Origin: Streptomyces roseirectus
Lineage (GTDB): Bacteria; Actinomycetota; Actinomycetes; Streptomycetales; Streptomycetaceae
Length of the DNA: 64,000 nt
Assembly: GCF_014489635.1 (NCBI RefSeq)
Contig: NZ_CP060828.1
Location: 7,382,001 to 7,446,000, forward strand
Direction of reading: 5' to 3'
Position 1 is the stretch's first letter. Each line of letters starts with the position of its first letter. The notes under the pieces were generated by a model. It was given only the letters and a program-made list of their open reading frames with translations, did not search any database and was not told the DNA's origin. A program made the position numbers and the translations under genes. Of the stretch, positions 2,529-57,172 are shown piece by piece.

Positions 2529-3577
2529 GCGACCTCACCCCGGGCTGCGCCCAGCTCCCGGCTCGCGCCCGACTTCCGGGCGGCGTCCAGCTCCAGACCG
2601 GCGTCCAACTCCCGTGCGGCGTCGGACTCCTGGGCCAGGCCGGTACCCGGGCCGGCGTCGAGCGCGCGGCCCGCGTCGGTCCTCTGGGCAGGGCCGGCGT
2701 CGAGCCCCCGGCCCCCGTCGGCCGCCGAGGCCGGGTCCGGCACGCGGGCGGCCTCCACCCCGCCCGCCCCCTCCAGCAGCGGCGACCGCCGGGTACGCCG
2801 GCGCAGTGCGCGCCGGTTGGAGCGTTCCTTGAGGATGACCCGTAGTACCCGTAGCCCGTCCCGGACGGCCCGCAGGTTGGAGACGCCGTGGATGCGCAGG
2901 TACTCGTGGCTCGGTATCTCCTGCACCTTCAGCCCCGCCTTGACGACCCTGATGTTGATCAGGGTCTCGATCTCGAAGCCGGTGCAGTCGAGGTCGATCT
3001 TGTCGAGGCAGTGCCGCCAGAACGCGTTGTAGCCGTAGCAGAGGTCGGTGTAGCGGGCACCGAACTTGCGGTTGACGACGGCGCACAGGGCGCTGTTGCC
3101 GAGCCGGCGGATGAAGGTCATGTCGTCGGTGCCGCCGCCGTTGGCGAAGCGCGAGCCCTTGGCGAAGTCGGCGCCGGAGACCAGCGCGGAGACGTAGGAG
3201 ACGATCTCGTTGCCGTCGGCCGAGCCGTCCGCGTCGACCATCACGATGATGTCGCCGGTGCACGCCTCGAACCCGGTGATCAGGGCGTCGCCCTTACCGC
3301 GCCCGCGCTGGGGGACGACCTTGACGCCGGGCCACAGTTCGCGGGCGACGCGGACGGTCGCGTCGGTGGAGTTGCCGTCGACCAGGACCACCTCGTGGAT
3401 CCAGTCCGGCAGGGTCTTGAAGACGTACGGCAGGTTCTCCGCCTCGTTCATGGCGGGGATCACCACGCTGACCGGCGGGGTGATCGCGAGGTGCGAGGAG
3501 ATCGGGCGGTACGCGGCGGCCGTCTGGTCCGCGTGTCGGTCCCGGTCCGTGCTCGCCGGTTGCAGAACGGAACTCAT
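2525..3577 (-). CDS. Family 2 glycosyltransferase, dolichyl-phosphate-mannose-synthase type
   Basis: 350 residues from MSSVLQPASTD. The core (residues about 27-270) begins VSVVIPAMNEAENLPYVFKT and has VLVDGNSTD, the VMVDADGS metal-binding motif, and FAKGSRFANGGGTDDMTF, as in DPM1/DPG-synthase-like enzymes that load a sugar on a polyprenyl phosphate. The last about 75 residues are a low-complexity Ala/Asp/Leu/Arg tail with imperfect repeats of the type LDAG or LDAA, not part of the catalytic domain. Longer upstream in-frame starts exist but would add an unrelated Arg/Pro-rich stretch. First gene of the operon; the next gene overlaps its stop by ATGA. Confidence 0.85.
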   Translation of the reverse strand: MSSVLQPASTDRDRHADQTAAAYRPISSHLAITPPVSVVIPAMNEAENLPYVFKTLPDWIHEVVLVDGNSTDATVRVARELWPGVKVVPQRGRGKGDALITGFEACTGDIIVMVDADGSADGNEIVSYVSALVSGADFAKGSRFANGGGTDDMTFIRRLGNSALCAVVNRKFGARYTDLCYGYNAFWRHCLDKIDLDCTGFEIETLINIRVVKAGLKVQEIPSHEYLRIHGVSNLRAVRDGLRVLRVILKERSNRRALRRRTRRSPLLEGAGGVEAARVPDPASAADGGRGLDAGPAQRTDAGRALDAGPGTGLAQESDAARELDAGLELDAARKSGASRELGAARGEVA

Positions 3578-4138: not shown

Positions 4139-5340
4139 ACGAGCTTCAGCAGCCGGTTGGGGGAGCCGCTGCCGGGGCTGGTGACGACGCTCGGGGTCGA
4201 GCCGGACACGAGCGCCGAGGCGACCTGCGCCGGGGTCGCCGACGTGTGGCCCGCGAGGTAGATTGCCGCCGCGCCCGCGACGTGCGGCGTCGCCATGGAC
4301 GTCCCGGAGATGGTGTTGGTGGCCGTGTCGCTGGTGTACCAGCCGGCCGTGATCGAGGAGCCCGGGGCGAAGATGTCGAGGACCGAGCCGTAGTTGGAGT
4401 AGCTGGCGCGGGCGTCGGTGTTGGTGGTGGCGCCGACGGTGATCGCCTCGGTGACCCGGGCCGGGGAGTACGAGGAGGCGTTGGCGTTGCTGTTCCCGGC
4501 CGCGACGGCGTAAGTGACCCCGCTCGCTATGGAGTTGCGCACCGCCGTGTCCAGCGCGGCGGACGCGCCGCCGCCGAGCGAGAGGTTGGCGACCGAGGGC
4601 CCGGAGTGGTTCGCCGTCACCCAGTCGACGCCCGCGATGACGCCCGCCGTGGTGCCGCTGCCGCCGTTGTCGAGCACGCGCACGGCGACGATCTTCGCCT
4701 TCTTGGCGACGCCGTAGGTCGAGCCCGCGATCGTGGTGGCGACGTGCGTGCCGTGGCCGTTGCCGTCGGCGGCGGTGGTGTCGCCGTCGACCGCGTCGTA
4801 GCCGTACGAGGCGCGCCCGCTGATCTGGGAGTGCGTGATGCGGACGCCGGTGTCGATGACGTACGCCGTGACGCCGCTGCCCGCGCTGTCGGGGTAGGTG
4901 TAGGTGCCGGACAGCGGCAGCGCGCTCTGGTCGGTGCGGTCCAGGCCCCAGGGGGCGCTGGTCTGGGTCGTGTCGGCCAGGCGGACGGTCTGGTTCTGCT
5001 CGACGGCGGCGACGGCCGGGTCGGCGGCGAGTCTGCGGGCCTCCCGCGCGGAGAGGGTCGCCGTGTAGCCGTTGAGCGCGGAGCCGAAGGTCTTGTCGAC
5101 CGTGCCGCCGTACTCCTTGATCAGGCTCTTGCCCGCGGCCGAGGCCGACTTGAGGCCGGCCCGCTGCTTGAGGGTGACGATGTAGCTGTCCTTGACGGCG
5201 GTGGGGGAGCCGGCCGCGACGACCGTGCCCTCGGCCGGGGCGGCCTGGGCGGGGAGCGCGGTGAGCCCGCCGGCGAGGGCGGCCGCCGCGACGGTGACGG
5301 CGGCGGTCAAGCGGGCCTTGTCGCTACGCAGTTGTGCCAT
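4132..5340 (-). CDS. Secreted S8 family serine peptidase (subtilase) with I9 propeptide
   Basis: 402 residues from MAQLRSDKARL, preceded by GAGGAGG at good distance; a longer in-frame extension lacks support. A Sec signal peptide (hydrophobic AAVTVAAAALAGGLTALPAQA) is followed by an inhibitor-I9 propeptide (DSYIVTLKQRAGLKS to AVEQNQTV) and the peptidase domain. The catalytic triad is clear: Asp in TAYVIDTGV, His in GNGHGTHVATT, Ser in SGTSMATPHVAGAA, with the oxyanion Asn in AVAAGNSN. It resembles proteinase-K-type extracellular peptidases, and the length is typical of pre-pro-enzymes without extra C-terminal domains. It diverges from the secreted SGNH hydrolase, with which it shares an operator-like region. 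Confidence 0.93.
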   Translation of the reverse strand: MAQLRSDKARLTAAVTVAAAALAGGLTALPAQAAPAEGTVVAAGSPTAVKDSYIVTLKQRAGLKSASAAGKSLIKEYGGTVDKTFGSALNGYTATLSAREARRLAADPAVAAVEQNQTVRLADTTQTSAPWGLDRTDQSALPLSGTYTYPDSAGSGVTAYVIDTGVRITHSQISGRASYGYDAVDGDTTAADGNGHGTHVATTIAGSTYGVAKKAKIVAVRVLDNGGSGTTAGVIAGVDWVTANHSGPSVANLSLGGGASAALDTAVRNSIASGVTYAVAAGNSNANASSYSPARVTEAITVGATTNTDARASYSNYGSVLDIFAPGSSITAGWYTSDTATNTISGTSMATPHVAGAAAIYLAGHTSATPAQVASALVSGSTPSVVTSPGSGSPNRLLKLVP

Positions 5341-15798: not shown

Positions 15799-16581
15799 TC
15801 ACCCCGTGGCGCGTGCGTATTTCCGCACCGCCAGCGGCGCGAAGACGCCGATCAGCAGCGCGCACCAGGCCAGTGAACCGGCGACCGGATGAGCCACGGG
15901 CCAGGCCGCGCCCTCGGGCACGGGCGCGTTGCCCAGAAGGTCACGCAGAGCGGTCGTCACCGCGCTGATCGGGTTCCACTCGGCGACCGTCCGCAGCCAG
16001 CCCGGCAGGTTGTCGACCGGGATGTACGCGTTGGACAGCAGCGGCAGCATGAAGGTGGAGCTGCCGAGTTGGCCCGCCGCCTCCTCGCTGCGCGAGAGCA
16101 GCCCGAGGAAGACACCGACCCACGTGCAGGCGAACCGGAACAGCAGGAGCAGCGCCAGCGCGCCGACCGCACCGAGCGCCGAGCCCTCGACCCGCCAGCC
16201 CACCGCCAGCGCCACCAGCAGGAACGGCACGGTCCCGACCGCCGTGACGACCAGATCGGCCACCGCCTGCCCCAGCGGCACCGCCGCCCGGCTCACCGGC
16301 AGCGTCCGCAGCCGGTCCGTCACCCCCCGATGGACATCCTGCGCCGCCTGGAACATCCCCGTCATGATCCCGTTCGCGGCGGTCGCCACCAGCAGCCCGC
16401 CGACGAGCACGGTGCGGTACCGCTCGCCCGGCATCGCCAGCGCGCTGCCGAACACGTAGCCGAAGAACAGCAGCATCGTGATCGGCATCGTCTGGGTCAG
16501 GATCACCAGCGCCGGATTGTTGCGCACCCGCAGCAGCTGACGGCCCAGCATGGCCGTCCCGTCGTAGGCCAACCCGCTCAT
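15799..16581 (-). CDS. ABC-2 type exporter permease (DrrB-like)
   Basis: 260 residues with six predicted membrane helices (for example ALVILTQTMPITMLLFFGYVFGSAL, ALGAVGALALLLLFRFACTWVGVFLGLL, VAGSLAWCALLIGVFAPLAV) and the ABC-2 signature region TFMLPLLSNAYIPVDNLPGWLRTVAEWNPIS. It forms the membrane channel for the ATPase encoded just upstream, whose stop it overlaps by ATGA. Typical of drug or antibiotic self-protection exporters; substrate unknown. Confidence 0.88.
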   Translation of the reverse strand: MSGLAYDGTAMLGRQLLRVRNNPALVILTQTMPITMLLFFGYVFGSALAMPGERYRTVLVGGLLVATAANGIMTGMFQAAQDVHRGVTDRLRTLPVSRAAVPLGQAVADLVVTAVGTVPFLLVALAVGWRVEGSALGAVGALALLLLFRFACTWVGVFLGLLSRSEEAAGQLGSSTFMLPLLSNAYIPVDNLPGWLRTVAEWNPISAVTTALRDLLGNAPVPEGAAWPVAHPVAGSLAWCALLIGVFAPLAVRKYARATG

Positions 16582-17579
16582 GCCGCAGCCTCCTTGAGGT
16601 CGCCGGTGCCGCCGATGCCGGCGGTGTCGTCCGTGTTGCCGGTGTCGTCGGTGTTCCGGGTGAGCCGCAGGAACACCTCGTCGAGCGTCGGCGCCCGCAG
16701 GCTCGCGTCGAGCAACGGCACGCCCGCCGCGTCGAGTTCGCGCACCAGAGCGGGCAGGGTGAGGCCGGGGCGGCGCGAGATCGCCCCGACGGCGCCGCGT
16801 TCGTGGTCGAACGACGGCTTGCCGCCCGTGAGTTGGTCGAGCACCGCCGCGGCCCTCGGCAGCGCGTCCGGATCGGCGACGACGGCCTCCGCGAACGCGC
16901 CCACCAGCGCCTTGAGTTCGGCCGGTGTCCCGGTCAGCGCGGCCCGGCCCCGGTCCACCAGGGTGATGTCGTCGGCGAGTTGGTCGGCCTCCTCCAGGTA
17001 CTGGGTGGTGAGGAGGACGGTGGTGCCCTGCCGCTTCAACTCCCTTACGGCGTCCCAGATGTCGTTCCTGCTGGCCGGGTCGAGACCGGTCGTCGGCTCG
17101 TCGAGGAAGAGCACCGCCGGACGCCGGACCAGGCTCGCGGCCAGGTCGAGCCGGCGCAGCATCCCGCCCGAGTAGGTCGAGGCCGCCCGGTCCGCCGCCT
17201 CCAAGAGGCCCATGCGCTCCAGCAGTTCGCCGACGCGCCGGTCCGGCCCGGGGACCCGGTGCAGCCGGGCGAACAGCCGCAGGTTCTGCCGGCCGGTGAG
17301 GTCGCCGTCCACGGACGTGCTCTGCCCGGTCACCCCGATGGCACGGCGGACGGCGGCGGCCTCCCGGACGAGGTCGTGCCCCGCCACGCGCGCCGAGCCC
17401 GCGTCGGGCCGCAGCAGCGTCGTCAACAGCCGCACGGCCGTCGTCTTGCCCGCGCCGTTCGGGCCCAGGACGCCCCGGACCGTGCCTTCCGGGACCGCGA
17501 GATCGAGGCCCGTCACGGCGCGGGTCTGCCCGAACCGCTTCTCCAGACCTTCACTAAGTACAGCGTACGTAGAAGTCAT
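16578..17579 (-). CDS. ABC exporter ATPase (DrrA family)
   Basis: 333 residues from MTSTYAVLSEGLEKRFG. Walker A GPNGAGKTT, Q-loop VTGQSTSVDGDLTG, signature YSGGMLRRLDLA, Walker B LFLDEPTTGLDP, H-loop LTTQY. The C-terminal part (ALVGAFAEAVVADPD... to RLTRNTDDTGNTDDTAGIGG) carries the DrrA-type accessory domain. An in-frame ATG six codons upstream is possible. A TetR operator copy lies over its start region, so expression should be repressed by the divergent regulator. Confidence 0.9.
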   Translation of the reverse strand: MTSTYAVLSEGLEKRFGQTRAVTGLDLAVPEGTVRGVLGPNGAGKTTAVRLLTTLLRPDAGSARVAGHDLVREAAAVRRAIGVTGQSTSVDGDLTGRQNLRLFARLHRVPGPDRRVGELLERMGLLEAADRAASTYSGGMLRRLDLAASLVRRPAVLFLDEPTTGLDPASRNDIWDAVRELKRQGTTVLLTTQYLEEADQLADDITLVDRGRAALTGTPAELKALVGAFAEAVVADPDALPRAAAVLDQLTGGKPSFDHERGAVGAISRRPGLTLPALVRELDAAGVPLLDASLRAPTLDEVFLRLTRNTDDTGNTDDTAGIGGTGDLKEAAA

Positions 17580-17614
17580 GGCGTGACCATAGCGCACTAC
17601 GTACGGTGTACGTA
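17555..17614. promoter_or_regulatory. Pair of TetR operators between exporter and regulator
   Basis: Site 1 (17598-17614) is the perfect dyad TACGTAC-GGT-GTACGTA. Site 2 (about 17555-17572) is CTAAGTAC-AGC-GTACGTAG with one mismatch. Centres are 43 bp apart, one in the short divergent gap and one over the first codons of the ATPase. Expected binding sites of the TetR encoded at 17643. Confidence 0.75.
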
Positions 17615-17642
17615 ACTACTATGAGGGGCGAGGTGATGATCG

Positions 17643-18359
17643 ATGGCGAGGCGTCCGGCCGTGCCCGAAGTGATCTGGGCCCGTCCCGAACGGACCGGCC
17701 GGGGGCCGAGGCCCGCGTACACGCGCGCCGACATCGCGGCGGCGGCCGTCCGCATCGCCGACGAACAGGGGCTCGACGCGGTCTCCATGCGGCACGTCGC
17801 CGCCGAACTGGGCTGCGGGACCATGTCGCTCTACAACTACGTCCCCCGCAAGGAGGACCTGTACGAGCTGATGGTCGACCTGGTCAGCGGCGAACACGAA
17901 CTGTGGGAGCCGGGCCCTGACTGGCGGGACGACATGCTGCGGGTCGGGCGCCAGACCCGGCGGCTGATGCTGCGCCACCCCTGGCTGCCCGGCCTGATGT
18001 CACCGGTCTACGGGTTCAGCCCCAACGCCCTGCGCTACCTCGAACACTGCCTGACCTGCCTCGATCCGCTGACTGACATGCGGTACGGCATGAAGCTGCA
18101 ACTCGTCGGGATGCTCAACGGGGTGGTCACCACCTACGTCGCCAACGAGCTGGCCACCGCCGAGCGGACGCGGTCGCTGCCGTGGTCCGTGGAGGAGGAG
18201 AACGCCGTCCGGATCGCGTACCTGGGGACGCAGGTGGCGAGCGGGAAGTATCCCCGGATGGGCGCGGCGTTCGCGGAGGATCCGGGGCCGATCGATCTGG
18301 AGGCGGTGTTCGAGGAGGCGCTGCGGCGGGTGCTGGACGCGTTCGTGCCGCGCGGCTGA
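17643..18359 (+). CDS. TetR-family repressor of the adjacent exporter
   Basis: 238 residues; AGGTG precedes the ATG by eight bases. The HTH is AAAVRIADEQGLDAVSMRHVAAELGCGTMSLYNYVPRKEDLYELM (residues about 30-75), and the C-terminal ligand domain is of the TetR_C_1 kind seen beside DrrAB-like pumps. Diverges from the pump genes with two matching operators in between, so control of the pump and itself is likely. Confidence 0.9.
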   Translation: MARRPAVPEVIWARPERTGRGPRPAYTRADIAAAAVRIADEQGLDAVSMRHVAAELGCGTMSLYNYVPRKEDLYELMVDLVSGEHELWEPGPDWRDDMLRVGRQTRRLMLRHPWLPGLMSPVYGFSPNALRYLEHCLTCLDPLTDMRYGMKLQLVGMLNGVVTTYVANELATAERTRSLPWSVEEENAVRIAYLGTQVASGKYPRMGAAFAEDPGPIDLEAVFEEALRRVLDAFVPRG

Positions 18360-18376
18360 CGGGCCCGCGGACGGCG

Positions 18377-19507
18377 TCACAGCAGAGTGAACTGGCCCGC
18401 CGGTCCCTCCTCCTGGAAGTCCAGGACCGAGGCCGGGTGGTGATACCTACGGGGTACGGGGAGTACGCCCGCCTCGCGCAGGTCCTCGATGCCGTGCTCC
18501 ACCTCCAGCGGGTCCCGCAGGTCCGCCAGCAGCGTGAGGACCGTGATCAGCTCCAGGAGTTCGGACGTCCACGACTGGGGCCAGGTGCGGGGGCCGATCG
18601 CCGACAGGGTGCCCTGCTCACCGGGCTCGGTCCGTGCCGCGAACCACTGCTCCAGGATCCTCGTCCCGCCGTGGGTGAAGTCCCACGCCTCCCGGGGGAC
18701 CGGGGAGACGCGGCCCTCGTCCAGGTGCAGGGTCTCCTCCTCGGGGTCGTACCTGAGGGTTACGGGTCGGGGCGGGAGCGGGGCCCGGACGTAGGGGCGG
18801 CGACCGCCGGGGAGCTTCGGGCGGTCGCCGTTGCGGCGGTGGAGCCACAGCACGTGGTGACCCCTGCGGGTTCCCTCGGCCCAGGTCTCGGGGTCGCTCG
18901 TCAGGGGGACCCGTAGTCCTGAGGTAGTGGTCGCGAGGATCCAGGCGAGGACGTCCTCGGGGCCCGGGATCTCCCCCAGACGGGCGGCGAGGTGGTCCAG
19001 GAGACCGGGGGCCAGGTTGGGTTCCTCGGCACCGGGACGGCGGTACAGGGGGCGGATCCGGGAGCCGCGGACGAGGGGGAGGCGCGAGGTGGCCAGCAGG
19101 CCGTCCGGGGTCTCCACCAGGAACACCTGGTGCTCGTCGGCGACCCGCCACAGCTCCGGGCGGGCCACGTCGATCAGCCGGTGGTCCGGGATCAGCCACT
19201 GCTCGTCGTACGGGGCGTACAGGACCCGGATCGGCGCCGGGCAGGGGCCCGAGGCGTGCGCCAGCCGGCCGGTCCCCGTTGCCTGCCCCGGCAGTTGGGC
19301 CACCGTCGAGTGCGGACCACGGACCCTGCTCACCTCGAACAGGCCCTCCCGCTCGGCCCCCTCGGCCCGCAGCAGCGCCTCCCAACGGGCCTTCAGAGCC
19401 CCCTCGTCAGGCCCCGCCGGCCACCCCCGGCCCAGCCGTGGGGGCCCGACGGACCACGGCATGAGGTCCGCGAGCGCCGGAGCGTCGTCGTGCGTCACGC
19501 TGGGCAT
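18377..19507 (-). CDS. Stand-alone type ISP restriction-modification specificity-like protein
   Basis: 376 residues from MPSVTHDDAPALADLMPWSV. The sequence (LADLMPWSVGPPRLGRGWP, LYAPYDEQWLIPDHRLIDVARPELWRV, VFLVETPDGLLATSRLP, PNLAPGLLDHLAARLG, DVLAWILATTT, PVPREAWDFTHGGTRILEQWFAAR) matches the C-terminal target-recognition part of single-chain type ISP enzymes. The helicase, nuclease and methyltransferase domains of a full-length enzyme (about 1500 residues) are absent, and no partner gene is nearby. So it recognises something like a TRD would, but restriction activity is not expected. Cytoplasmic. Confidence 0.65.
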   Translation of the reverse strand: MPSVTHDDAPALADLMPWSVGPPRLGRGWPAGPDEGALKARWEALLRAEGAEREGLFEVSRVRGPHSTVAQLPGQATGTGRLAHASGPCPAPIRVLYAPYDEQWLIPDHRLIDVARPELWRVADEHQVFLVETPDGLLATSRLPLVRGSRIRPLYRRPGAEEPNLAPGLLDHLAARLGEIPGPEDVLAWILATTTSGLRVPLTSDPETWAEGTRRGHHVLWLHRRNGDRPKLPGGRRPYVRAPLPPRPVTLRYDPEEETLHLDEGRVSPVPREAWDFTHGGTRILEQWFAARTEPGEQGTLSAIGPRTWPQSWTSELLELITVLTLLADLRDPLEVEHGIEDLREAGVLPVPRRYHHPASVLDFQEEGPAGQFTLL

Positions 19508-51641: not shown

Positions 51642-52030
51642 TTGTTCCACCCCAGCACCACCGCCACGACCATCGCGACGGCGACGACGGCGACGACGAG
51701 ACTGAGCACCGCGGGGAACCGGGACGCCGGCAGATCCTCCCCGCGCCGCATCGCCCGCTCGCACCGCACCCAGTGGTTCAACGCCCGCACCGCGCACAGC
51801 ACCCCGGCGACCAACAGGGCCAGCGCGAGCCCGACGCGCCACCCCCAGCGCAGGTCGGGAAGGAACTGGTCGACCGCGAACCCGCCGCCGACCAGCGCCA
51901 TCGCCGTACGGAGCCAGGCGAGGAACGTGCGTTCGTTGGCGAGCGAGAACCGATAGTCCGGCGTGGTCCCTTCCTCCCGGACGCGCTCGGGCGCGAACCA
52001 CAGGCGGACGTTTCGAACAAAATCGATCAC
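51638..52030 (-). CDS. DUF202 membrane protein, YidH type
   Basis: 130 residues from MIDFVRNVRLWFAPERVREEG. TPDYRFSLANERTFLAWLRTAMALVGGGFAVDQF is the YidH/DUF202 start, with three helices and the ending VVLGWNK. The pair of DUF202 proteins is translationally coupled and probably forms a hetero-oligomer in the membrane; related domains occur in eukaryotic VTC polyphosphate complexes, but a role here is unknown. Confidence 0.9.
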   Translation of the reverse strand: MIDFVRNVRLWFAPERVREEGTTPDYRFSLANERTFLAWLRTAMALVGGGFAVDQFLPDLRWGWRVGLALALLVAGVLCAVRALNHWVRCERAMRRGEDLPASRFPAVLSLVVAVVAVAMVVAVVLGWNK

Positions 52031-52095
52031 GCTCAGGACCCTACCCGGCGCCGGGGGAGGGGGCGTTGTCAGTGGCGGGCGTTACGGTCGGTGAC

Positions 52096-52872
52096 ATGGA
52101 GGTACCAGCGCCGCCGAGCGGCTACCCGCACCCCAACCCCGGCCTGACCCCGGCCGAACACCACCTCGCCCTGCCGGGCTTCTGGCCCGCCTACCTGGCC
52201 GTCCCCCAGGCCGACTTCGAGGAGTACGGCGCGGACGAGGCGGACGTCGACGCGGCGTGCGAGGCGCTGTACGACGCGACGGAGGCATGGCCGGCGCTCA
52301 GACTCCCGCTGCCCCGGGGCCGCGCGGTGCGGATCGTGTTCGCGAACCGTCCGGACGACCCGGGCGTCGAGTACATCCTCACCGACCCCGCCCCGCGAGC
52401 ACTCGCCCCGACCGGAACCCGCCTCACCGCCCTCCCCTGGCCGGACCTCCTCGCCCTGGCGGAGGCGGTCGCGGACGACGGAGAGGGCGGGGCGGTCCTG
52501 GATGCCGGCGAGGGCGAGGCGATCGCGGACGGTGGCGAGGGCGAGGCGATCCCGGACGACGGAGAGGGCGGGGCGGTCCCGGATGCCGGCGCGGGTCAGG
52601 CGGTCGTGGACGGTGGCGAGGGTGAGGCGGTTCCGGAGGACGACGGCGAGGGCGTCCGCGACGCCCACCGCCGACTCCTCCTGCTGCTGCCCGTGTACGC
52701 CGCCACGGGCGCGCCCGCCGACGAGGCCCTGGCGCGCACGTGCACCGCCCTGACGTCGATCGGCGTACCCGCGCGCAGCGCCCCCGCCCTGGCCGGCCGG
52801 CTCCTCGACCGACCCCTCTGGGACGCGTCGGGCGCCAGCCCCCTCAGCGGAGCCCACCCCGGTGCTCTCTGA
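52096..52872 (+). CDS. Conserved hypothetical protein with acidic 9-residue repeats
   Basis: 258 residues from MEVPAPPSGYPHPNPGLTPAEHHLALPGFWPAYLAVPQADFEEYG. The N-terminal about 125 residues (VRIVFANRPDDPGVEYILTD) look folded and conserved; residues 128-181 are six tandem units of nine residues such as DGEGGAVPD and GGEGEAIPD; the C-terminal about 70 residues (AHRRLLLLLPVYAATGAPADEALARTCTALTSIGVP) are helical. Function unknown. The 3' end overlaps the convergent NUDIX gene by 29 bp. Confidence 0.75.
   Translation: MEVPAPPSGYPHPNPGLTPAEHHLALPGFWPAYLAVPQADFEEYGADEADVDAACEALYDATEAWPALRLPLPRGRAVRIVFANRPDDPGVEYILTDPAPRALAPTGTRLTALPWPDLLALAEAVADDGEGGAVLDAGEGEAIADGGEGEAIPDDGEGGAVPDAGAGQAVVDGGEGEAVPEDDGEGVRDAHRRLLLLLPVYAATGAPADEALARTCTALTSIGVPARSAPALAGRLLDRPLWDASGASPLSGAHPGAL
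52477..52638 (+). repeat. Six 27-bp tandem repeats arranged as a duplicated 81-bp block
   Basis: Units 1-3 (52477-52557) and 4-6 (52558-52638) correspond one to one, so three units were duplicated together. In frame within the acidic-repeat protein. Confidence 0.9.
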
Positions 52873-53362
52873 GCCGTTCGTACGCCGCCAGCCCGTCCGG
52901 CACCCACGTCCACTCCCTGAGCCGTCCCTCGACCTCCTCCTCGGACAGGAACCCGTACCAGTCGACCTCCTCCACCTGAGGCCGCACCGGCAGCGACCAC
53001 CGCGCCTCGTACACGGCGGACCACCAACTGTTCCCCGCCCCGTCGTCGTACAGGAACTTGAACAGGAACTCCGGCTGCCCCAACCCCCTCACCCCCAACT
53101 CCTCCTCCGCCTCCCGCAACGCCGCCTCGTCATACGCCTCCCCGGCCCCGACCACCCCGCCCACGAACATGTCGTACAGCGACGGAAACACCATCTTCGT
53201 GGCCGTCCGCCGGTGCACGAACAACCGCCCCGCGTCATCCCGCACCTCGATGAACACACACCGATGCCGCATCCCCCGCGCATACACCTCCCCACGCGGC
53301 GCCCGCCCCACCACGTTGTCCCGTTCATCGACGACGTCAAGAATCTCGTCAGCAGCACTCAT
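52844..53362 (-). CDS. NUDIX hydrolase (isopentenyl-diphosphate isomerase-like fold)
   Basis: 172 residues from MSAADEILDVVDERDNVVGR; an ATG four codons upstream is possible. The Nudix box GX5EX7REUXEEXGU is exact in GGVVGAGEAYDEAALREAEEELGV. The surrounding HRCVFIEVRDDAGRLFVHRRTATKMVFPSLYDM resembles the YfcD/IDI-like subgroup. Hydrolyses a nucleoside-diphosphate-linked or related phosphate substrate, not defined. Confidence 0.9.
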   Translation of the reverse strand: MSAADEILDVVDERDNVVGRAPRGEVYARGMRHRCVFIEVRDDAGRLFVHRRTATKMVFPSLYDMFVGGVVGAGEAYDEAALREAEEELGVRGLGQPEFLFKFLYDDGAGNSWWSAVYEARWSLPVRPQVEEVDWYGFLSEEEVEGRLREWTWVPDGLAAYERLREHRGGLR

Positions 53363-54756
53363 GGACCCATCCAAGCAGCCCCCACACCCCGACTCCCCAG
53401 CATCGACGCCCCCGGGCCGCCCACCCGGAACCGGTCACTCTACGGCCCGCCGTCCCGCGTCGGCCGTGCGTCGGCAGTCGCTCTGGACCGGCCGCCTCCG
53501 GCCCGGCTGCTCAGGCTGGCTGTTCCGGCGTCAGCCCACAGCCCCGCCTGCCTGGGACCGGTCACGCTGCGGCGCGCCGTTCCGCGTCGGTCGCGTGTCG
53601 CCAGTGGCTCTGGACCGGTTGTCTCCGGCCCGGCTGCTCAGGCTGGCTGTTCCGGCGTCAGCCCACAGCCCCGCCTGCCTGGGACCGGTCACGCTGCGGC
53701 GCGCCGTTCCGCGTCGGTCGCGTGTCGCCAGTGGCTCTGGACCGGTTGTCTCCGGCCCGGCTGCTCAGGCTGGCTGTTCCGGCGTCAGCCCACAGCCCCG
53801 CCTGCCTGGGACCGGTCACGCTGCGGCGCGCCGTTCCGCGTCGGTCGCGTGTCGCCAGTGGCTCTGGACCGGTTGTCTCCGGCCCGGCTGCTCAGGCTGG
53901 CTGTTCCGGCGTCAGCCCACAGCCTCGCCTGCCTGGGACCGGTCACGCTGAGGCCCGTCATCCCGCGTCGGCCGCGTGTCGCCGTGGCTCTGGACCGGTT
54001 GTCTCCGGCCCGGCTGCTCAGGCTGGCTGTTCCGGCGTCAGCCCACAGCCCCGCCTGCCTGGGACCGGTCACGCTGAGGCCCGTCATCCCGCGTCGGCCG
54101 TGCGTCGGCAGTCGCTCTGGACCGGCCGCCTCCGGCCCGGCTGCTCAGGCTCGCCGCTTTGGCGTCAGCCCAACAGCCCCGCTCTCGGCATCGTCCGCTC
54201 GGACCGGCCGCCCTCAGGCCCGCCGTCCCGCGTCGGCCGTGCGTCGGCAGTCGCTCTGGACCGGCCGCCTCCAGCCCAGCCGCTCAGGCTCGCCGCCCGG
54301 CGTCAGCCCCCTCCCGGCGCCCGGAACCTCCTCAGCCCTTACCGCCTCGGGCCAGTCACCCTCGCGCCATTTCCCCAAGCCGGCAGCCTCGGCGCCAGCC
54401 ACCCGCACCGGTTGCCCCAGCCAGGCACCACCCAGGAGCGACCGCCCGGCACCAACTGCCCGGACCAGCCGCTGCCCGGACCGGTGACTCAGGCCGGCTG
54501 TCCCGGTGCCGGACATCCCGGATCGGCCGCTCCGGGCGCAAGCCGCCCCAACCTTGCCTCCCACGCCATCTCCAACGCTGCCTCCGCAGACGGCCACCCC
54601 AGGTGCTGACCACTACAGATGCCGCCCCCCGACACCGCCCTCCCGACACCGCCCTCCCGACACCGGCCGTCCCGGCCCAGCCGCCTCCCCAGACCTGCCC
54701 CGCAGACCAGCCCCGGTCAGGCCCTCTCTAGTCCGGCCCCCGGACCACCCCCACCC
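53363..54756. other. 1.4-kb gene-free region dominated by a 127-bp tandem array
   Basis: No gene supported. Long open frames in all three rightward frames result from the repeat having a period of 3n+1 and no stops. Beyond about 54330 the sequence keeps fragments of the unit (GGACCGGT, CAGGCCGGCTG) up to about 54540, i.e. a decayed flank. Confidence 0.7.
53430..54330. repeat. 127-bp tandem repeat array, about seven copies
   Basis: The marker ACCGGTCAC starts at 53430, 53557, 53684, 53811, 53938 and 54064 (spacings 127, 127, 127, 127, 126), with a degenerate seventh copy from 54203 after a 12-bp insertion. Each unit includes CTCTGGACCGG, CCGGCCCGGCTGCTCAGGCT, GTTCCGGCGTCAGCCCA and CCCGCCTGCCTGGGACCGG. 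Confidence 0.95.
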
Positions 54757-55650
54757 TCACCCCGGCTGAAGATTCCGCGCAGGTTCCCGCACCCCGCCCC
54801 CCTGCGGCATGGCCGGATGCAACCCCAGCAGCACGATCCCCGTGACGATCCCGGCCAACCCCGCCGCCTCCCAGGCGAGTGCCCCGGTGTCGGTCCGCAG
54901 CCGGTCGCCGAGGAAGCCCACGCCGCAGGCGATGCCGGCGAGGGGCTGGGCGGCGGTGAGGGCGGGGAGGGACATCCGCAGGGGCGCCGTCTCGAACGCG
55001 CTCTGGACGAGGACGAGCCCGGTGACGCCGAGCGCCAGGACGGCGTAGGGCTGCCACCCGGTGAGGAGCCCGGCGAGCCCGCCGGCGGCGAACCGCTGCC
55101 CGCTGACCCGCGTCAGAGCGTCCTGGACGCCGTACAGCAGCCCGGCCGCGAGGGCGAGCAGGACGGGCCCGGAGCTGAGCCGGGACCGCTTGGCGTACGC
55201 CGTCAGCAGCAGCGCGAGCCCGGTCATCGCGCCGATGATCAGCCAGTGCCGCAGCGGATCGGCGACCGCGTGCCCGCCGCGCGGCTCACCGGCGACGATG
55301 AACGCGGTCACGCCCCCGGCGAGCAGCGCGAGCCCCGTCCACCCCTGTTTCCCGAGGCACTGGCGGGTGTACCGGCGCGAGAGCGCCAGCGCGAAGAGCA
55401 GGTTCGTCGCGAGCAACGGCTCGACGAGGGACACCTCACCCCGTCCGAGCGCGACCGCGCCCAGCGCCATCCCGGCGACCATCAGCCCGAGCCCGCCCAG
55501 CCAGCGCGGCACCCGCACCAGGTCGAGCAGCAGCCGGGGCGAGAGGAAGTCGCCGAGCGGCGCCCGCCGCGCGGCCTGCTGCTGGAGCACGAACCCGAAA
55601 CCCAGACAGCAGGCGGCGCTCACGGCGAGAGTCAGAACCAGTACCGACAC
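54757..55650 (-). CDS. DMT-superfamily transporter
   Basis: 297 residues from the GTG at 55650 (VSVLVLTLAVSAACCLGFGF), which has GAGGTAC at the right distance; a longer frame upstream is not supported. About ten helices in two EamA-like halves (PRWLGGLGLMVAGMALGAVALGRGEVSLVEPLLATNLLFALAL and PYAVLALGVTGLVLVQSAFETAPLRMSLPALTAAQPLAGIACGVGFLGDRL). Exporter of small metabolites by family; substrate unknown. Confidence 0.85.
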   Translation of the reverse strand: MSVLVLTLAVSAACCLGFGFVLQQQAARRAPLGDFLSPRLLLDLVRVPRWLGGLGLMVAGMALGAVALGRGEVSLVEPLLATNLLFALALSRRYTRQCLGKQGWTGLALLAGGVTAFIVAGEPRGGHAVADPLRHWLIIGAMTGLALLLTAYAKRSRLSSGPVLLALAAGLLYGVQDALTRVSGQRFAAGGLAGLLTGWQPYAVLALGVTGLVLVQSAFETAPLRMSLPALTAAQPLAGIACGVGFLGDRLRTDTGALAWEAAGLAGIVTGIVLLGLHPAMPQGGGVREPARNLQPG

Positions 55651-56128
55651 GCTGCGTACCTCGATGATCGTCCGGTCGGACCACGGTCGTCGCGGCCGAC
55701 TGTAGTGCCCCGCGCGCCGACCGCTCCGGGGAATGCGAGGAACGACGCCCACGGGTACCCCGCAGCCGTGCGCTCACCCCGCTGCAACGCGGAGCAAAGC
55801 GGACGGGAGGGGGCCGGCCGTCCCGACATCGTGGGCCGCGCCGCCCCGCCGCGCCATGGCGTACGCCACACCCCCGTCACGTCCGCGCCATACGCCACAC
55901 CCGCGCCACGTGCCCCGCACCGCCCCCGACCAGCACTCCCGCCTGGTTGATCACCGGTCCAAGTCCCTTGGGACGGCAGTCACTTGATACGTGTCATGTT
56001 CCCCTGGCCCTTGACGCTGACCGCTACCTGGGGCTTTGCTGTGCGTGATCGGCCGATCGCAGGCCGACGGCAATCCGTGCCGTGCCCGTGTCGTGCCAGT
56101 CCTGCCAGGAGGATGAGGAAGTCCCGCG
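55651..56128. other. 478-bp intergenic region
   Basis: No gene seen. Contains two copies of a CGCCATACGCCACACCC-like sequence (about 55855 and 55888) and, near 55985-56040, a TTGACG element upstream of the next gene that could be part of a promoter. Confidence 0.5.
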
Positions 56129-57172
56129 GTGCCCCCACCCCCGCCCTCCCCGGTTCCCGGTCGCGAACACCCGCCCAGGACCCTGGACGCCACCCTCGAC
56201 GACGCCGAACTCGGCGTCGCCCGCGCCGCGCTGGCCCAGGGCCGCTGGCAGGCCGCCCGCACCCTCCTCGCCCGCACCGGCGACGACTGGGACCGCCGGG
56301 GCCACCGCGCCGCCGTCCTCTCACTCGAACCCCACGCCGCCCCCGGAGCCACGGAGTGGCTGACCGCCGAACCGCACAACCCCGACGCCGCGACGCTCCT
56401 CGCCCTCGCCCTCGTCCGCCGCGCCTGCCGGGACGAGCGCGCCTGCCGGGACGAGCGCACCTGCCGGGACGAACGCGCCCACCGGGGCGGGCCCATCCAC
56501 CGGGACGAGACCGACGCGGACGACGCCCGCGCCGCCTGCCACGCGGCGGCCCGCCTCGCCCCCGCCGACCCCACCCCCTGGCTGGGCCTGCTCCGCCTCG
56601 ACGGCGACGACGCCCCCGCCGCCGTCCGCCTCTTCGAGGAGGTCCGCGCGCGTCACCCCGACCACCACCAGGCCCACCACCTGATGGTCGCCCGCCTCGC
56701 CGAACGCCGTGCCGACAGCGGGCCCGACCCGCTCCACGAGGTGTACGACTTCGCCGCCTGGGCCGCCGAACAGGCGCCCGCCGACTCGCCGCTCGCGATC
56801 CTCCCGGTCGTCGCGCACGCCGAGCGCTACCGCGTCCTCGCCGCCCACGGCCACCTCTCCGCCGACCCCGCCGCCTCCGGGCACTGGGCCGGCGGGCGCT
56901 CCCGCGAGGTGATGAAGGCCGCGTACGACTGGTGGCTGGAGTGGGAGCACGAGGGGCACCCCCGCCGCCTCATCGACCTCAACTACCTCGCCCACGCCGC
57001 GACCTGCGCCGGCCGCCCCGCCGAGGCGTCCGCCCTCTTCCAGCGCATCACCGGCCACGCGACACCCCGCCCCTGGTCCTACCCGGACCGGGACCCGTAC
57101 GACGCGTTCACGAGGGCGAGGGAACGAGCGCTGAGGAGGGGGTACGGGGAGGAGACCCCGTCATACCCGTAG
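56129..57172 (+). CDS. Hypothetical helical (TPR-like) protein
   Basis: 347 residues, GTG start after GGAGGATGAGGAAG. Alternating helices such as DDAELGVARAALAQGRWQAARTLLARTGDDWDRRGHRAAVLSLE, DDARAACHAAARLAPADPTPWLGLLRLDGDDAPAAVRLFEEVRARHPDHHQAHHLMV and RPAEASALFQRITGHATPRPW resemble degenerate tetratricopeptide repeats. An insert of three exact-to-near copies of (A/T)CRDER comes from an 18-bp tandem repeat. No signal or membrane helix. Family with known function not recognised. Confidence 0.75.
   Translation: MPPPPPSPVPGREHPPRTLDATLDDAELGVARAALAQGRWQAARTLLARTGDDWDRRGHRAAVLSLEPHAAPGATEWLTAEPHNPDAATLLALALVRRACRDERACRDERTCRDERAHRGGPIHRDETDADDARAACHAAARLAPADPTPWLGLLRLDGDDAPAAVRLFEEVRARHPDHHQAHHLMVARLAERRADSGPDPLHEVYDFAAWAAEQAPADSPLAILPVVAHAERYRVLAAHGHLSADPAASGHWAGGRSREVMKAAYDWWLEWEHEGHPRRLIDLNYLAHAATCAGRPAEASALFQRITGHATPRPWSYPDRDPYDAFTRARERALRRGYGEETPSYP
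56420..56491 (+). repeat. 18-bp tandem repeats coding (R)ACRDE
   Basis: CGCGCCTGCCGGGACGAG at 56420-56437, 56438-56455 (identical), 56456-56473 (two changes) and a degenerate fourth copy to 56491, in frame inside the helical protein gene. Confidence 0.9.

Follow-up and report, generated by a model that had tools for sequence, protein, structure and literature searches.

In the M. tuberculosis complex, the gap between rnc and fpg1 carries 279-358 bp of direct repeats, versus 1-54 bp in other mycobacteria, and the downstream gene's expression is reported to be linked to repeat length (PMC2734929). Phase-variable promoter tandem repeats have also been reported in M. tuberculosis (PMC12817950). 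In their survey of prokaryotic satellites, Subirana and Messeguer (2019) report 38 satellites in S. coelicolor, or 4.2 per Mb, using a search that requires at least four repeats of a decamer (PMC6749651). Among the papers listed on Streptomyces tandem and intergenic repeats, judged by titles and abstract openings, we found no account of the array or gap described here.

The locus analysed here resembles the rnc-fpg1 MIRU-VNTR, as described in that report, in that lineage-specific direct repeats fill a gap between conserved neighbours that are nearly contiguous in relatives, and in that several repeat lengths are nested in each other (PMC2734929). The likeness is one of layout: the rnc-fpg1 units are 16-37 bp long, while the Streptomyces unit is 127 bp, and strain variation was measured in the mycobacterial case (PMC2734929). 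Like the satellites of the prokaryotic survey, of which about 40% are given as unique in sequence, it is a local tandem array, and many of the surveyed unit lengths are likewise not multiples of three (PMC6749651). The intergenic repeats of archaeal Borgs are described as having an independent local origin and partial repeats at their edges, as here; their units, like the 127-bp unit, are mostly not divisible by three, and some Borg arrays start within the last part of a gene (PMC9879509). Borg repeats are described as perfect and A-enriched, whereas the Streptomyces array is GC-rich and its older copies have decayed (PMC9879509).

A 127-bp tandem array between a membrane-protein gene and a NUDIX gene

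We analysed a 64-kb stretch of a Streptomyces genome, referred to as the window. The strongest tandem array found in it by TRF has a period of 127 bp, with 6.9 copies, 92% matches and a score of 1253, and no other array in the window comes near it. The same stretch also gives a TRF row of period 380 (score 1316). The array and its neighbours are as follows.

52844..53362, minus strand: NUDIX hydrolase gene (PF00293, E 2e-14), with a conserved start
53375-54756: gap between the two minus-strand genes, 1,382 bp
53430..54309, no strand: 127-bp tandem array, 6.9 copies, non-coding (TRF; flat GC by codon position)
54757..55752, minus strand: upstream gene, for a multi-spanning membrane protein (genes in this order in 73 of 80 loci)
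C1:7382001-7446000: position of the window in its own genome, a single contig of 9,947,447 bases

The array occupies 880 of the 1,382 bp of the gap, and together with two smaller arrays it accounts for 1,017 bp. The upstream gene matched no Pfam family at E 0.001; by reading of its sequence, we regard its product as DMT/EamA-like. As in a minisatellite or VNTR, the copies run head to tail with a unit longer than about 10 bp (127 bp, 6.9 copies), and they are intergenic and non-coding. Six ACCGGTCA anchors are spaced 127, 127, 127, 127 and 126 bp apart, and the last step of the array is 139 bp. An earlier note on this DNA had described about seven copies with a near-constant 127-bp step, each read in a different frame. 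Both points agree with these measurements, since 127 is 3n+1 and each copy therefore takes a new reading frame.

Adjacent units are alike along their full length, unlike a CRISPR array, in which short repeats alternate with differing spacers. Near the array, we also observed a 27-bp (81-bp) tandem repeat at 52462-52654, whose period is a multiple of three and which lies inside a convergent open reading frame (52066-52872, plus strand). The end of this frame overlaps the end of the NUDIX gene, and 8 of the 80 loci contain a match to the frame at E 1e-5.

Copy variants record growth inside old edges

We aligned seven units and also compared them in a shifted phase. The parts that could be told apart are listed below.

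53430..53503, no strand: old half unit of 74 bp at the edge nearest the NUDIX gene, matching the newest units at 84% and those at 54011-54276 at 92-93%
53496..53924, no strand: newest part, with exact 127-bp periodicity (a 302-bp match run at lag 127 starts at 53496)
53938..54063, no strand: copy 5, an intermediate variant with a 1-bp deletion (126 bp; copy alignment)
54064..54320, no strand: the older, decayed copies 6 and 7, with a step of 139 bp (copy alignment, shifted-phase comparison)
54321..54756, no strand: decayed tail with weak similarity to the unit (best match 54476-54507) and short arrays (TRF, local alignment)
54344-54427: short array in the tail, 42 bp x 2.0 (TRF)
54622-54674: short array in the tail, 14 bp x 3.8 (TRF)

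Over their 127 bp, copies 2 and 3 show no difference, and copy 4 departs from them at one site, in line with the description of copies 2-4 as almost identical. Copy 6 is 80-87% and copy 7 is 76-85% identical to copies 1-5. The outer copies (1, 6 and 7) had been said to share a variant. The shared variant is limited to some 30 bp (alignment columns 50-78). Over columns 101-140, copy 1 has the inner type, i.e. that of copies 2-5. Copy 1 thus combines outer-type and inner-type blocks, and the array is a mosaic.

In the shifted phase, the units at 53504-53630, 53631-53757 and 53758-53884 are exactly alike. The units after 53884 resemble these three newest ones at 94, 90 and 83%, and then at 75-80%. 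The newest copies are therefore off-centre: they lie beside the old half unit on the NUDIX side, and the copies become older towards the upstream gene. Identical units near the left edge with an old half unit outside them indicate that the array grew inside old edges, off-centre and on the NUDIX side. The earlier proposal of nested expansion from the centre of the array thus holds as expansion within old edges and has to be amended to an off-centre, mosaic one; growth from the centre itself is contradicted by the position of the newest units (53504-53884) next to the old half unit.

The earlier note had also placed decayed units beyond 54330, and weak similarity does continue past 54320: local alignment of the tail (54321-54756) with the doubled unit gave z 4.5, reached by 1 of 300 shuffles, and z -0.1 on the other strand. 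An older sub-period near 14 or 28 bp in the tail is no more than a hint, at z about 3 with many periods tried, and 72 bp scored higher. We also considered whether the unit is itself made of two half-units (57 + 70 bp), but 124 of 1000 shuffles scored equally well and this is unsupported. No seed of the unit was found, as the unit matched neither the upstream gene nor the NUDIX gene in the own species.

Since assemblies can mis-size tandem arrays, the array could in principle be an artefact of assembly. We consider this extremely improbable: the genome is a single contig, and the ordered substitutions and the indel between copies are unlike a simple assembly duplication. What is least certain about the array is how many identical units it has.

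The array shows no sign of coding for protein or of folding as a structured RNA

The 541-aa open frame on the plus strand (52862-54487) spans the array, which would be compatible with a coding repeat. However, this frame is antisense to the NUDIX gene, and GC content by codon position is flat both in the array (0.74/0.78/0.76) and in the tail (0.75/0.73/0.78), while it is strongly uneven in the real genes (0.71/0.45/0.88 in the NUDIX gene and 0.77/0.55/0.92 in the upstream gene). The frame matched no Pfam family, and none of the 8000 candidates scored was a protein relative of its residues 185-480 at E 0.001. The unit length is not a multiple of three, and the codon bias expected of a coding repeat is not seen. 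The array is thus, as had been stated, not built to code. On codon-position GC and the absence of relatives among those scored, we rejected coding in any frame, and we give a coding repeat practically no credence.

The earlier note had further suggested a small-RNA array or a protein-binding array. Single copies folded separately reach -53.9 to -69.9 kcal/mol, which is stable, as GC-rich sequence is in general, and the folds show no clear excess over shuffled sequences: the unit has z -1.32 on the plus strand (25 of 200 shuffles as good) and z -1.17 on the minus strand (24 of 200), and the whole array on the minus strand has z -0.63 (6 of 20). We then scored changes between copies on the fold of copy 3 as reference. 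Copies 2 and 4 alter no pair of this fold. On the plus strand, changed pairs were still canonical in 1 of 5 cases in copy 1, 1 of 4 in copy 5, 3 of 13 in copy 6 and 2 of 13 in copy 7; on the minus strand, the corresponding counts were 1 of 4, 0 of 3, 4 of 11 and 3 of 10. Most changed pairs are broken, and there is one compensatory change in total across all copies and both strands. Rfam gave no match in 52000-56500 at E 1. A structured RNA would fold better than its shuffles and keep its pairs when it changes; the array does neither, and the small-RNA idea finds no footing in these tests.

As for protein binding, the hexamer GACCGG occurs 13 times in the array, and the full 8-bp palindrome GACCGGTC occurs just five times, once in each of five copies. 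The claim that palindromic GACCGG-type bits recur in every unit has to be corrected on this point. A search for inverted repeats with arms of 8 bp or more and a spacer of up to 60 bp found none inside the array; by the same definition, the gap contains two, both outside the array. A scan of 53300-54900 found no terminator-like or sigma-70-type sites; the scan does not cover all promoter types. By our own arithmetic, 127 bp is close to 12 helical turns, which together with the recurring palindrome would suit an array of sites maintained by selection. On the other side are the lack of inverted repeats as defined above, the broken pairs of copy 7 and the presence elsewhere of only short or weak matches to the unit. 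As far as the sequence can tell, a protein-binding array does not appear to be borne out, and we consider it very unlikely that the array is held by selection as a set of binding sites or small RNAs.

A conserved element precedes the NUDIX start codon

The listed open reading frame of the NUDIX gene starts at a TTG (53374), 12 nt upstream of an ATG at 53362. Directly before this ATG, many of its relatives share a block, CTGCTTGGATGG, which in the window contains the following element.

53369..53377, minus strand: conserved element TGCTTGGAT, resembling an extended -10, at 6 nt from the NUDIX ATG; across NUDIX orthologues its form is TGnTTGGAT, mostly at 6-7 nt

From the aligned rows we wrote the pattern TGnTWnnnT, placed 5-8 nt before the ATG; as it was written after viewing these rows, its presence in 76 of the 81 rows (window included), at a distance of 6 nt in 58, 7 nt in 17 and 8 nt in one, describes the same rows. 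The pattern stands before 73 of 77 NUDIX-start ATGs, versus 4 of 12,506 other ATGs (both strands, 80 loci); 77 is the number of loci with an ATG at the expected place, and the other 3 have none there. Because spacings of 6 and 7 nt would put the block in different reading frames, the conserved block lies outside the protein. With the conserved element directly before it, the ATG at 53362 would be the true NUDIX start, and we moved the start of the gene there.

Leaderless transcripts occur in Streptomyces. The layout of the block suggests the extended -10 element of such a transcript, i.e. a putative conserved leaderless promoter. The block could instead contain a weak ribosome-binding site; the scan of 53300-54900, which takes in this block, gave no sigma-70-type promoter.

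The element lies between the gene and the array, 52 bp from the latter, and 67 bp separate the NUDIX ATG from the array. This short distance is one point for an alternative in which the array is a promoter-upstream VNTR whose copy number changes often and tunes NUDIX expression, by analogy with the rnc-fpg1 repeats of the M. tuberculosis complex. The layout is the same, in that one lineage has repeats throughout the space before a gene and its relatives have a short gap (PMC2734929), and the newest copies are exact, so the length change is recent. However, the conserved element that precedes the NUDIX gene is outside the array, and no promoter-like site was found in the array by a scan that does not cover all promoter types. 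We regard this alternative as improbable.

The gap is short in related species

We examined 80 loci, the best of 567 confirmed NUDIX relatives, of which 79 are from Streptomyces and one is from an 'Actinobacteria bacterium'. The upstream gene precedes the NUDIX gene in 73 loci. It was not found in seven, one of which (L098) has 29 bp of upstream DNA only. Taken as the distance between the two protein matches, the gap in the 73 relatives is 20 to 537 bp long (median 65 bp) and is longer than 200 bp in nine. Since it is 1,382 bp here, the gap has swollen in its own lineage, and, as expected of a minisatellite or VNTR, relatives have no array or a much shorter one at this site.

Across the 80 loci, three of the seven non-coding-like arrays with a score of at least 200 sit in this gap (L072, L108 and L134). 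The gaps total 7,175 of the 796,608 bp of the loci, and this enrichment is a lead, since the loci are centred on the NUDIX gene. In two of the three, the gap repeats the last codons and the stop of the upstream gene: L108 (S. shenzhenensis, about 4464-5000; z 6.5, 0 of 300 shuffles) and L134 (S. griseosporeus, about 4717-5000; z 5.6, 0 of 300 shuffles). The other ten loci with gaps of at least 150 bp gave z -1.1 to 2.0 against the end of the upstream gene, and the window gave z -1.9. The repeats in L108 and L134 come from the gene end, for which the window gives no signal; arrays have thus arisen in this gap independently of each other, with the gene end as their source in at least two cases.

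It is conceivable, though rather unlikely, that satellites arise again and again in the gap upstream of the NUDIX gene in Streptomyces. In that case, the leaderless promoter would free the DNA upstream of it, lineages would grow arrays of their own, some of them seeded from the upstream gene's final codons, and the lengthening spacer would progressively uncouple the NUDIX gene from read-through of its neighbour.

The unit is confined to one site

A query of 380 bp from the array finds nothing but the array in its own genome (4 matches), and the full array as query adds one scrap of 31 bp. We searched the full array against 392 genomes of the genus (own included) and the whole gap against 395 relatives (own included), with two candidates scored per genome in both searches; the relative set overlaps the genus set. 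Neither these genomes, nor the 80 loci, nor the protein search with the open frame brought up a second strain of the species. The full array had matches at E 0.001 in 89 genomes. Among the matches listed from other genomes, these cover 24-180 bp of the query with a best E of 5.8e-7, and the longest is 69% over 180 bp, in genome G284.

The whole gap had matches in 13 genomes at E 1e-6. Of the 12 that are not the own genome, 11 fall within query positions 1239-1341, the short-repeat tail, and the remaining one (G117) covers query positions 71-131, 61 bp in the first copy at 82%. The 11 matches come from the region of the 14-bp x 3.8 array and not from the 127-bp unit.

Plasmid records gave no match at E 1e-5. 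A MIRU-like family would have related units interspersed at many sites, and the unit is found at one site in its own genome. A mobile or interspersed element is ruled out by this single site, the short or weak matches elsewhere and the lack of a plasmid match.

The array is large but ordinary in kind

We compared the array with others found under the same TRF settings, using a filter for non-coding-like arrays (flat GC by position, score of at least 200) that can miss units that are a multiple of three. This gave 11 rows in 0.8 Mb of the own genome, two of them CRISPR-like, versus 14 rows in 2.4 Mb of other Streptomyces, a count that keeps a CRISPR-like-looking control row (L265). A narrower first comparison (11 rows in 0.8 Mb versus 3 in 1.2 Mb) had hinted that the own genome is unusually rich in such arrays. 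We rejected this, as 9 versus 14 rows, with the two CRISPR-like rows removed, gives a one-sided binomial p of 0.097.

None of the arrays that pass the filter in the 3.2 Mb of comparison sequence scores 1000, but such arrays are common; the 127-bp array is therefore large, and ordinary in kind. Five arrays that fail the filter do reach 1000 (L156, L150, L170, L245 and L264). The L170 array, in the own genome, may be non-coding; it lies at 2651-3311, with 8.2 copies of 81 bp, 98% matches and a score of 1245. Also in the own genome, L184 contains at 16271-19224 (near C1:9671271-9674224) a CRISPR-like repeat together with arrays whose step is close to 61 bp (183 = 3 x 61); by reading, this is a putative CRISPR.

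Discussion

Taken together, the array is very probably a neutral, lineage-specific, non-coding intergenic minisatellite. In our best reading, its growth is of a kind already known, and intergenic VNTRs of this kind are known from mycobacteria. Older and shorter duplications would have enlarged the gap first, and slippage in replication or unequal recombination between direct repeats would then have duplicated a 127-bp stretch several times. The gap would tolerate such growth because the NUDIX gene seems to have its own promoter element, of a leaderless type, right before the ATG, which would make further upstream DNA dispensable and leave the gap free to grow. Most likely, the array does nothing that is selected.

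The array had also been proposed as a recombination hot spot. Its own history implies turnover of copies by slippage or recombination within it, and the proposal holds to that extent and no further. Array length may differ between strains.

Little depends on a single array. It shows plainly how satellite growth can stretch a compact gene pair, and the ages of its copies can be read in order. The series of gaps, from 20 to 537 bp in relatives to 1,382 bp here, is a natural set for measuring the effect of spacer growth on the downstream gene, and, should its copy number vary, the array might be used for strain typing.
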